Below, piece after piece: positions 13,301 to 16,862 of a stretch of DNA of 64,000 nt. The DNA is from Streptococcus oralis (lineage in GTDB: Bacteria; Bacillota; Bacilli; Lactobacillales; Streptococcaceae). Position numbers and translations under genes: made by a program. The notes beneath the pieces were generated by a model, which worked only from the letters and a program-made list of their open reading frames with translations, searched no databases and had not been told where the DNA came from. Position 1 is the first letter of the stretch, and every line of letters starts with the position of its first letter. The stretch is taken from assembly GCF_023611505.1 (NCBI RefSeq), contig NZ_CP097843.1, positions 1,612,001 through 1,676,000 on the forward strand, written 5' to 3'.

Positions 13301-16300
13301 CCAATTCCACTCGCATTTCTGGAGTCCATTTATAGGTGCTACCGTTGTCAGTCATGGTAACTGGTGTACCATTTTCCCATTTACTTACAGTGAAGTGTTG
13401 GAAGTACTTAGTCATGACGTCATGGGCAAATAGGTTGGTTACATAGCCATTGTAGTCGCTTCGTCCTTGCCATCCTTCAAAGTCCTTCATGCTGTAGCCA
13501 CCTAGAAGTGGGTAATCTGCTGCGCCTCCGTAACTTCTGTAGTCCCCTACCCAAGCATCTTTTTGGTGGTTACGGATAAAGCGGGTGATGGCACTGTTGA
13601 TACCTTTATTAGTGTAGCCACCATAGGTCAAGTCAGCTGCCCAGTGATGGAAGGTAGAGTCGTACTCACCACCATGGCCCCACTCAATCGCAAAGCGCCA
13701 GCCTTGTTTGTTTATCTCTTTAGCGAGAACGTGGGTAGCCCAGGCACCGTTGTCACCTGATTGACCATTGCCCCAAACGTCCACATAGATAAAGTCGAGT
13801 CCGTCACCAAGTTTTTTCTTCAAATCTTCCCAGCGAGCCAAACGACCATGTGCCAAGTCATAAGCCGCATCAATGTTGATACCTTGGTCTAGCCAGTTCC
13901 AACCATAGCTATAGCTACCATCTGGATTCTTACGAAGGATTTTTTCATTGAAGTATTTAGATTCTGGGTAAGTTTCAGAAGCGTTAACGTGGATACCAAT
14001 GTGGGCACCGTACTTCTTAGCTTTCTCAATCAAGGTCTTAAAGTCTTCAACACCACCAATACGTTTACCAATATCAGCATAGTTCAAGTGGCCTGAGTCA
14101 TGACCTTCACTACCATAACCTTTAAGGAGAACACCTTGCCCAAGACCATCTGTGTGGAGATTGATTTTCTTGATACCATCTAGAGTCATGAGGAATGGGT
14201 TTTGTGCTTGTGAGCCAAAGTTCATCGCGATACGATAAGCTGTAATATCCTTAACTTTTTCCCAACCTTGAGGGTTGTTCATGATGCTACGATAAGCAAT
14301 GGCACCATCCTGCCAGTCGACTTTCTTGTCCGCATTAGCATCTTCAGTGATAACAACCTTGGCACTTGGAAGTTCCTTAGTATACTCTGGGAAGACAATG
14401 CCCTTATAAGCTTTTTCCCATTGCCATTCAGAGCTATGAATTCCAACATAGTTGGCATTTCCGACTGTTTCCTTGTAAGCTGTCAAACGAGTCCAGTCAT
14501 AAGAACCTCCACCGTAGCTGTTTTGAGAGTTGCTCCAAACACCTGCAGCAAGCTTATCTGTAGAAACAAATCCATACATGTAACCCTTGGCCAAGTCTTT
14601 CATTGGATTGGTTACATCGATATGATCATCTCCGCTGACATGGGTATTGTTTGACATGGTTGCCCCATCAAACTTAGCACCAGCTTGATCACTCGAAACA
14701 GAGACTAAAGCATTACCAAGGAAACTAATAGAAGAAAGTAGTTTTCTTTCGTCATCAATCTTTTGACCTGGAGTAACTTGATTGTGGTTGACAATCTTGG
14801 TCACATCAAAGTGCAACTGATTATCAACAACTTGCAGACGGACCGTCATTTCTGCATTGATTAAGTGATCATCATCGCGAAGCTTCATCAAGTATTCTGC
14901 AGTTGTCTCATTGATTTTTTTGTAAGTAACTTCAGGTGTGACTTCGTGTTTGTTGATAAATACTTTATTGAATTGTTGGACTTGTCCTGGCAAGGTATGC
15001 CCGTTCAAACTGTATTCTTTAATACGTGGGAAGGCTTGGTCAATCACTGCCTTGAGAACCTTAGACTGGATCGTATCATAAGTCACCTTACTATCATCAA
15101 CGGCAGGACCTGTTTCTTTTTCAGCGGGAGTATCATCCGCTTTTACGCCTTCCTGATTGTCTGTTTTAACGCTGACAACTGTACGCTCATTGCCATAGGA
15201 ACCAGCTTTTAGGACGATTTTCTTCTCATTTTTGAGAGTTTCATTAACAGCTGCTGGCAAAGTGACCGTATCAAAGAGTTTCTCATCATTATTCGTTGCA
15301 TTGAGTTGTCCATCTGACTTGAGAGTGATAGAAAGACGGTTTACAGAACCTGGTTCTGGTGCTGCTACACGGTTGCCCTTATACCAGGTGCTATCGGTTG
15401 GAGATTTATACTCCCAGAACCAGCCGTCCTTGTCATAACCAACAAAAACATTGTTCTTGGTGTCTTTAAATTTCAAGAAGACACCGAAGCGTGATTTGCC
15501 CTTTTCAGAATCATCTTTGAAGGTTAAATCAACCGTCGCATTTCCATTAGCGTCAACTGTCAATCCTTGTTTTTCAAACAAGGCTGGTTTATCGCCATTG
15601 TCGTTCTGTGCAGTTGAGGACAATTGATTGTAGCGGACACCTTTTTCTTCACGAACCGTAACTGCTCCCTGTTGTTCTTTATTCACTACTGTTTGCCATT
15701 CAGGGGTTACTGTCTTAGGTGTTTCAGGTTTAGCAGCTGCAGGTTTATCCTCTTTTGGTTTTTCTTCAGCCGGTTTTTCTTTCTCTTCCAAGTCTGCTGG
15801 TTTCACACTTGAAATTCCCTGTATGTGGTCTTGGATCCATTTTAGTTGAGCTGGTGAGAAGAGAATACCGCCGCTCCGTTTTCCAACTACACCATTTTGG
15901 TGTACACCGACTAATTTGCCTTCTGTATCAAAGATACCGCCGCCACTAGCACCCGGTTTTCCTCCTTGGTAACCAATCCCTTGGACACCTTCTCCGTATG
16001 GTTCCGCAAAATCAACTGTAGTATTGACAATCGGATTCAATTTCCCTTCTGGATAACCAAAGACATGAAGTTTATCTCCGATTTTCTTAACTACTGGCTT
16101 TTTGGTTACTTCAACAGGCGTGTTTTCGAGAACTGTACGCAATCTCACAAGGGCCAAATCATTCTTGAAGCCCTTCAGGTAGCCTTCACGATCCCAATGA
16201 ATGATATCTTTCTTGCTAAACTTGACATCTGGCAATCCTGGATATGAGATACTATAGATATCTCCATCCCCTTGGTCATTGTCCACAACCTTACGGATAT

Positions 16301-16862
16301 TGCCGTCTTGACTATCCTTGATAAAGTTATGAGAAACCGTTAAGACAAGGTCTTTTGCAACGACAATACCACTACCTTCTCCTGATGGCGTCTTGATCTT
16401 AACAGTTGCGCCGTAGTTTAATTCCCCATTGGTAGTCTTAGCCACATCTTCTGGGACGAGCTTCCCAGTATCTTGGGCCAATTGATCTTTGTCAACTTCA
16501 CGCCCATTGTCTTCGGCTTTCTCCAACTTATCTTCTAATTCTTTTGGCAGATTGCTTGGCTTTTCAGACTTTTCTTTTTCTTGAGCCAACAACTCTTCTT
16601 CTGTTTGAGGGCCTTCAGTAGTTTCAGCTGAGCCAGGATTCTGAGCGGCAACTTCCTTGTCAAAATCGTGCCCCTCATCACTAGCCTTCTTATCCAAATC
16701 AGCTAGTTCACTCGGTAAATTAGTTGTTGAACCAACCCTTGCTTGATCAGCCAACACTGGGGCAGTAGCAAAGAAAGTCGCTCCAATCATCACCGAAGCT
16801 ACTCCAAGCGTAAACTTACGAATACTAAACTTACAGCGTTTTTCAAAAAATTGTTTATCCAT
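10395..16862 (-). CDS. Serine protease/GH101 endo-alpha-N-acetylgalactosaminidase surface protein
   Basis: A 2155-residue wall-anchored O-glycanase; GH101 releases the core-1 disaccharide Gal-beta-1,3-GalNAc from Ser/Thr of mucin-type glycoproteins. It has a YSIRK signal peptide (1-40) and an acidic linker, then a trypsin/V8-like protease module between two EKEK motifs (residues 95-98 and 360-363) with a complete triad: H178 (TVSHNF), D235 (KNDLAL), S306 (GASGGG). A LamG-like module (about 405-570) and the GH101 catalytic region follow, with D1028 (YVDVWG) and E1060 (IEWGHG). Their 32-residue spacing equals that of D764/E796 in pneumococcal SpGH101. An F5/8C module (about 1757-1905), six 17-residue repeats and LPATG (2122-2126) end the protein. 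The pneumococcal enzyme as I know it lacks the protease. The start ATG follows AAGGAG. Confidence 0.93.
10629..10934 (-). repeat. Six tandem 17-residue (51-bp) wall-proximal repeats
   Basis: The unit is [17 protein letters not shown] with small variations (V/I, K/N, A/V, H/N). Six complete copies fill exactly 306 bp, followed by KPAYTG and the LPATG anchor. The preceding sequence GEEQPPVL is shared with the GH20-GH84 protein. Confidence 0.9.

Follow-up and report, generated by a model that had tools for sequence, protein, structure and literature searches.

A V8-like serine-protease module at the N-terminus of wall-anchored GH101 O-glycanases of Streptococcus, found on other surface enzymes and absent from the pneumococcal enzyme

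The window (64,000 nucleotides of Streptococcus oralis contig NZ_CP097843.1) encodes a wall-anchored GH101 O-glycanase that carries a V8-like serine-protease module near its N-terminus. Directly supported are this architecture, the predicted fold, an invariant catalytic triad, purifying selection, the presence of the module on several hosts, its nested absence from the pneumococcus and the swap of an N-terminal cassette between GH101 lineages. We read the module as a latent, activation-dependent V8-type protease at the outer N-terminal end of the O-glycanase, a reading to which we give close to, though not quite, even confidence.

Domain order of the window protein

The gene is a single ORF for a 2155-aa protein with the order YSIRK signal, protease module, GH101 O-glycanase, F5/8-type (CBM32-like) domain, SIALI-17 repeats and LPXTG anchor. 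Its features are as follows.

10395..16862, reverse strand: YSIRK/LPXTG surface protein, 2155 aa, single ORF
16770..16844, reverse strand: YSIRK signal motif, residues 7-31 (PF04650, E 5.6e-12)
16569..16580, reverse strand: EKEK (residues 95-98) at the left end of the stretch that the pneumococcus lacks
15774..16568, reverse strand: 265-residue stretch (99-363) without a counterpart in the pneumococcal GH101, from comparison with the pneumococcal gene
15801..16463, reverse strand: folded V8-like serine-protease domain, residues ~134-354, with H178/D235/S306 and His321 (Pfam, alignment, AlphaFold2, Foldseek)
15774..15785, reverse strand: EKEK (residues 360-363) at the right end of the stretch that the pneumococcus lacks
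15153..15680, reverse strand: GH101_N domain, residues 395-570 (PF17995)
13440..14312, reverse strand: GH101 catalytic domain, residues 851-1141, with D1028/E1060 (PF12905, E 9e-122)
11208..11558, reverse strand: F5/8-type (CBM32-like) domain, residues 1769-1885 (PF00754)
10398..10514, reverse strand: LPXTG wall anchor, residues 2117-2155 (PF00746, 20.9 bits against a cut-off of 20; TIGR01167, 18.2 against 15.9)

The protein is a GH101 member by its catalytic and flanking GH101 domains, which lie above cut-off: six GH101-associated Pfam families match over residues 395-1668, with a galactose-mutarotase-like domain at 598-850 and more GH101 domains up to 1668. NCBIfam gave six SIALI-17 repeat stretches and a match to NF040533 (endo_SpGH101) of 4229 bits against a cut-off of 2900. 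The protease part was recognised by Pfam as Trypsin_2 (residues 163-320, E 2.4e-11, 45 bits against a cut-off of 27.6). The Pfam matches and the LPXTG anchor thus bear out the first-pass annotation, made from the DNA letters, in placing a protease domain and a GH101 O-glycanase in one wall-anchored chain. No Peptidase_M26 family downstream of the module, and no M60 or M66 metallopeptidase domain (mucinase/O-glycopeptidase), was among the Pfam matches of the window protein; it could still act like a mucinase.

Adjoining the GH101 gene on the same strand (window 2005-10284) is a gene for a surface protein of 2759 aa, whose hexosaminidase domains are GH20 and GH84-type; it also has SIALI-17 repeats and five F5/8-type stretches.

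Fold, triad and S1 pocket of the protease module

An AlphaFold2 model of the module, built from 23 module sequences (mean pLDDT 85.5, pTM 0.83), has the chymotrypsin-type fold of a V8-like (S1, PA clan) peptidase. Its top solved match is 9ect (Foldseek E 2e-19, TM 0.82 on target), followed by Rv3671c-type, V8-type and other chymotrypsin-fold proteases. The trypsin/V8-like domain with H178, D235 and S306 proposed in the first pass is therefore confirmed, with the residues as named, by the Trypsin_2 match and the modelled fold. Its proposed extent (99-359) stood in part: the domain is present, but residues 105-133 have pLDDT < 50 and the folded part covers ~134-354.

By sequence alignment the His-Asp-Ser triad is accompanied by an oxyanion-hole glycine. 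H178, D235, S306 and His321 are retained in 89/89 complete modules across five contexts (two fragments, from L100 and L167, were left out), and the triad and His321 are among just 19 invariant columns in a 23-row alignment on the 255-residue query, in which identities fall to 19%. As far as sequence can tell, the invariant triad argues for selected catalysis. In V8 and exfoliative toxin a Thr stands five residues before the catalytic serine, and Thr at this -5 position together with a His defines a Glu-type S1 pocket. The putative Glu-type pocket of the module has the invariant His321, and at -5 it has Gly301 in the window and Ser, Gly or Thr elsewhere (48, 27 and 15 of 90 copies, respectively). 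Trypsin-style activation, with an Asp preceding the serine, was rejected, as Ala, Phe, Met or Leu occupies this position.

Relation to GhTrp and other known proteases

The best match of the module, by both sequence (132 bits) and fold, is GhTrp, the trypsin-like domain of a Gemella haemolysans M26 IgA1 protease (PDB 9ect, 7uvk). The two are 32-33% identical in structural alignment, their GxSGGG and HQNG motifs align, and each is the N-terminal part of a surface enzyme acting on host glycoprotein, although the partner is a metalloprotease in GhTrp and GH101 in the window protein. Sequence and fold place the module in the GhTrp domain family, with 9ect the closest among solved structures, and the best explanation is that it belongs to a streptococcal/Gemella 'GhTrp' branch of the V8-like (glutamyl-endopeptidase-like) peptidases. 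V8/glutamyl endopeptidases, Spl proteases and exfoliative toxins of staphylococci, which are stand-alone secreted enzymes, have the same fold and triad type at ~18-21% identity (structural alignments). CbpG, the pneumococcal choline-bound serine protease that we take, from gene order, to be locus L204, is like the module a surface PA-clan protease, but lacks a glycosidase and gave a module match of 32 bits only.

In the part of the literature that deals with it, the distant CbpG is reported to be active on fibronectin and casein (PMC8592123). Cbp33, a choline-binding protein of commensal streptococci (mitis, S. oralis), is described in the relevant part of its report as having a trypsin-like domain; two G5 domains follow this, with no glycosidase (PMC12211801). 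NF040533 (1962 positions) matches window residues 1-1957 with its positions 1-1961. It already spans the module, because another protein's protease modules match its positions 123-375; no protease is mentioned in the listed name and description of the model.

The portions of the published work that describe GhTrp give its triad as H724/D779/S850 and report that the constructs were inactive on chromogenic peptides and on an E. coli peptide library, likewise with a ~30-residue longer N-terminus, and that the S1 pocket is malformed and occluded by loop 2 (PMC11970125, PMC9637739). According to the same portions, an earlier study found no contribution of GhTrp to IgA1 cleavage, the domain occurs in some streptococcal IgA1 proteases, and the authors propose a pro-enzyme while leaving room for a lost protease function (PMC11970125, PMC9637739). 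This last option, a fold retained as spacer or binding domain after cutting was lost, is consistent with GhTrp being inactive with an occluded S1 in those accounts (PMC11970125, PMC9637739), and with the lack of the module in the pneumococcus and the existence of two degraded copies (below). The triad and His321, kept in every complete module over deep divergence, count against it because a non-catalytic domain would not need them, and we consider such a pseudoprotease quite improbable.

Distribution among Streptococcus genomes

GH101 was found in 94/284 Streptococcus genomes and a module match anywhere in 77/284 (E 1e-5, single-sequence query). The module lies ahead of GH101 in 65 of the 94 GH101 genomes and is thus the majority state in the sample; the idea that the arrangement is an oddity of the window was rejected accordingly. 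Locus by locus, 81 GH101 loci were examined (the window and 80 of the other 93), of which 60 have the module and 21 do not. Among the 13 remaining genomes, five (G116, G119, G121, G169 and G206) were counted, with module and GH101 frames of equal length, and eight were not among the 77 with a module match. The 11 named records found include S. oralis strains and one S. pseudopneumoniae. Across 398 Bacilli genomes, all strong module matches (E < 1e-70) were in Streptococcus; the others were weak (43-60 bits) and came from 17 genomes, 15 of which share one genus code.

In three of the 60 module loci the gene is not one open frame. Two are degraded copies, with module and GH101 in different frames (L080, genome G130) or the module interrupted internally (L100, G122). 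The third (G209) was rejected as a broken copy, its interruption being a 20-N scaffold gap.

The pneumococcal enzyme and the direction of change

SpGH101, the pneumococcal endo-alpha-N-acetylgalactosaminidase (PDB 3ecq, 5a55-5a5a), is the same glycanase with its catalytic acids in place, but lacks the 265-residue protease stretch (window 99-363). It is represented in the sample by one genome (G157, locus L099), identified by near-identity to PDB 3ecq in the aligned part shown, with 1767 aa from the first Met and catalytic acids at 764 and 796. The window gene is 91.9% identical to it in DNA over 4815 shared bases. D1028/E1060, the equivalents of D764/E796, are kept in 57/57 aligned module-bearing orthologues. 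The first-pass figures of a 265-residue module and an offset of 264 between these pairs all check out, and window residues 99-363 are absent from the pneumococcal protein.

Two EKEK motifs had been described as bracketing the module. They are indeed at 16569-16580 and 15774-15785, and are the only two in the window protein (residues 95 and 360), but they are not conserved flanks: among 57 aligned orthologues (the 60 rows with the module minus L080, L100 and L103) EKEK is found on the left in 30, on the right in 18 and on both sides in 16. EKEK as a defined mobile-element boundary was rejected for this reason. The linker at the module edges is A-rich, and an imperfect 11-nt repeat common to both window edges is located at the pneumococcal breakpoint; it would at most mark a plausible slippage or recombination point.

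For the GH101 core (1093 columns, 81 rows) a quick tree was made, unrooted and with SH-aLRT as the only support; in it the pneumococcal row falls within a starred ten-row set in which nine rows have the module. Module presence requires four changes on this tree, and the GH101s on deeper branches are mostly without it. The module as an 'insertion' relative to a pneumococcal norm, the wording of the first pass, does not hold: it is present in 65/94 genomes and the pneumococcal row nests in a module-bearing clade. This nesting makes loss in the pneumococcus most likely, and the deeper module-less branches suggest that the module was probably gained earlier; gain within the genus followed by pneumococcal loss is the simplest reading of the quick tree. 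Recombination could also account for the pneumococcal position, and absence there would still not be primitive. The module is dispensable for GH101, because the pneumococcal enzyme is without it, the G122 copy is interrupted and the G130 copy has the two parts in different frames.

What occupies the N-terminal slot of the 21 module-less proteins was assigned by local BLAST, and for one sialidase row (L073) by Pfam as well: a GH33 sialidase in five, a second GH101_N in ten, neither in five, and the pneumococcal protein. The sialidase rows are L076, L081, L104, L117 and L073, and four of these five loci are free of N gaps; with sialidase and O-glycanase in one chain, two deglycosylation steps could be done. 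A 6585-aa sialidase-GH101-fucosidase chain in G019 (L073/L206) was rejected, as its frame crosses N stretches and may be two genes. Two GH101_N-like stretches (local BLAST) are found in the N-terminal part of L133, L137, L139, L144 and L146-L151.

The module on other surface enzymes

Twenty further loci chosen among the module matches listed (Pfam and NCBIfam on four of them) comprise five GH29 fucosidase proteins, five M26 IgA1 proteases, one of which is cut by a contig end, and ten two-module proteins, three of which have a GH33 sialidase after the modules. In the hosts examined the module is N-terminal to the partner enzyme. In a module tree (89 rows, quick tree with long-branch warnings), each host type forms one side of a branch with support of 88-99. 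Two module matches occur in the genome from which the window comes: the GH101 gene and a GH29 protein, the latter (L153:1014-7160) combining the module with GH29 fucosidase, CE2_N and F5/8-type domains. In the two-module surface proteins (L154-L159, L167, L169, L171 and L172) the first module starts shortly after the signal peptide and might, to judge from this position, have a nearly free N-terminus without further processing. The stretch after the first module looks choline-binding-like by eye and has no Pfam match in the two proteins scanned.

A one-molecule mucinase is, on present sequence grounds, a plausible function of the window protein. In its constitutively active form, in which core-1 glycans would be taken off and the bared mucin or IgA1-hinge peptide then cut, it would draw on the same-chain architecture, the wall anchor, the intact triad and the repeated pairing of the module with glycan-removing enzymes. 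The nearest homologue, GhTrp, is nonetheless described, in the portions cited, as inactive and without effect on IgA1 cleavage (PMC11970125, PMC9637739), the module is also found on M26 IgA1 proteases that are already peptide cutters, and evidence for a mucin substrate was not found in the open-licence literature; we regard constant activity of this kind as unlikely.

The variety of partner chemistry (sialidase, fucosidase, O-glycanase, metalloprotease) could instead fit a common housekeeping job, in which the module would trim or release its own or neighbouring surface proteins, with the partner enzyme shed or activated. The N-terminal position of the module, with charged repeat-like linkers alongside, is in line with such a role; the linkers, when read for cut sites, have edges that vary. 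We know of no experimental support for this option and hold it to be improbable.

Selection and exchange of the N-terminal cassette

The module is under purifying selection: its dN/dS inside three GH101 clades (of 24, 25 and 7 rows) is 0.053, 0.043 and 0.055, within the span of values of the glycosidase-side domains (0.019-0.031 in the catalytic domain, 0.041-0.061 in GH101_N). When the oralis-like clade is compared with the mitis-like one (these names and infantis-like are labels of this analysis), with dS near saturation, dN/dS is 0.102 in the module, 0.068 in GH101_N and 0.018 in the catalytic domain; here the module changes faster and is less constrained than its GH101 partner. For residues 99-131, which overlap the disorder predicted by AlphaFold2, dN/dS is 0.16 in the oralis-like clade (from only 123/276 pairs), 0.37 in the mitis-like clade and 0.036 in the 7-row infantis-like clade.

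Mitis-like and infantis-like GH101s are 92.3% identical over residues 1-60 and 93.4% over the module, versus 55.8% over GH101_N, 54.2% over the mutarotase-like domain and 84.0% over the slow catalytic domain. The signal-plus-module cassette therefore moved by itself, swapped between two diverged GH101 lineages.

Discussion

Both domain families, an NCBIfam model spanning the module, the module on IgA1 proteases and a trypsin-like domain on Cbp33 are already known. In the open-licence literature, among the matches listed, neither the protease-GH101 combination nor the majority status of the module, its pneumococcal loss and the shared cassette on glycosidases was found in print.

For the latent, activation-dependent protease that we favour, the zymogen activation, catalysis and substrate that we infer would run as follows. 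The protease domain would first exist as a zymogen; once the disordered stretch ahead of ~residue 134 were removed, a new N-terminus would be set free and would order the S1 pocket, an idea put forward for GhTrp on the basis of BGP peptidase; and the active protease would cut protein substrates near, or bared by, the partner glycosidase. Activation by a new N-terminus would reconcile the invariant triad with the inactivity of GhTrp, which argues that the tested form may have been missing something, and would fit the disorder before residue 134. The model is also favoured by the purifying selection on the module, its fusion to enzymes of host glycans and IgA1, the cassette exchange and the reported activity of the distant CbpG. 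Against this model may be set the reported inactivity of GhTrp and its lack of a role in IgA1 cleavage, as well as Gly301 at the -5 position of S1, varied in other copies, which would leave specificity ambiguous. The weaker constraint on the module between the oralis-like and mitis-like clades, the low ratio of residues 99-131 in the infantis-like clade and the dispensability of the module for GH101 also count against it. Because the module pairs with enzymes of mucin-type glycans and IgA1, a deglycosylated glycoprotein is the leading candidate substrate, with self- or neighbour-processing as the main alternative. The GhTrp tests, in the portions of the reports that describe them, covered chromogenic peptides, an E. 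coli peptide library and IgA1 (PMC11970125, PMC9637739), so that other O-glycoproteins and deglycosylated mucins would be obvious candidates.

More broadly, and with more doubt than belief, the mitis group may be proposed to have a class of protease-armed surface glycosidases. In these, one zymogen-type V8-like family would serve as a mobile N-terminal cassette on O-glycanase, fucosidase, sialidase and IgA1 protease, providing sugar removal and peptide cutting from one anchored molecule; the pneumococcus would have dropped the protease from its O-glycanase, and the reference enzyme would then have only one of the two catalytic parts that its recent ancestors had. GhTrp, apparently inactive, gains a broader setting, with relatives on at least four kinds of host-glycoprotein enzymes. 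If the module is active, one wall-anchored molecule of commensal streptococci would both strip O-glycans and cut protein, and the pneumococcal GH101 structures would describe a derived, shortened form.
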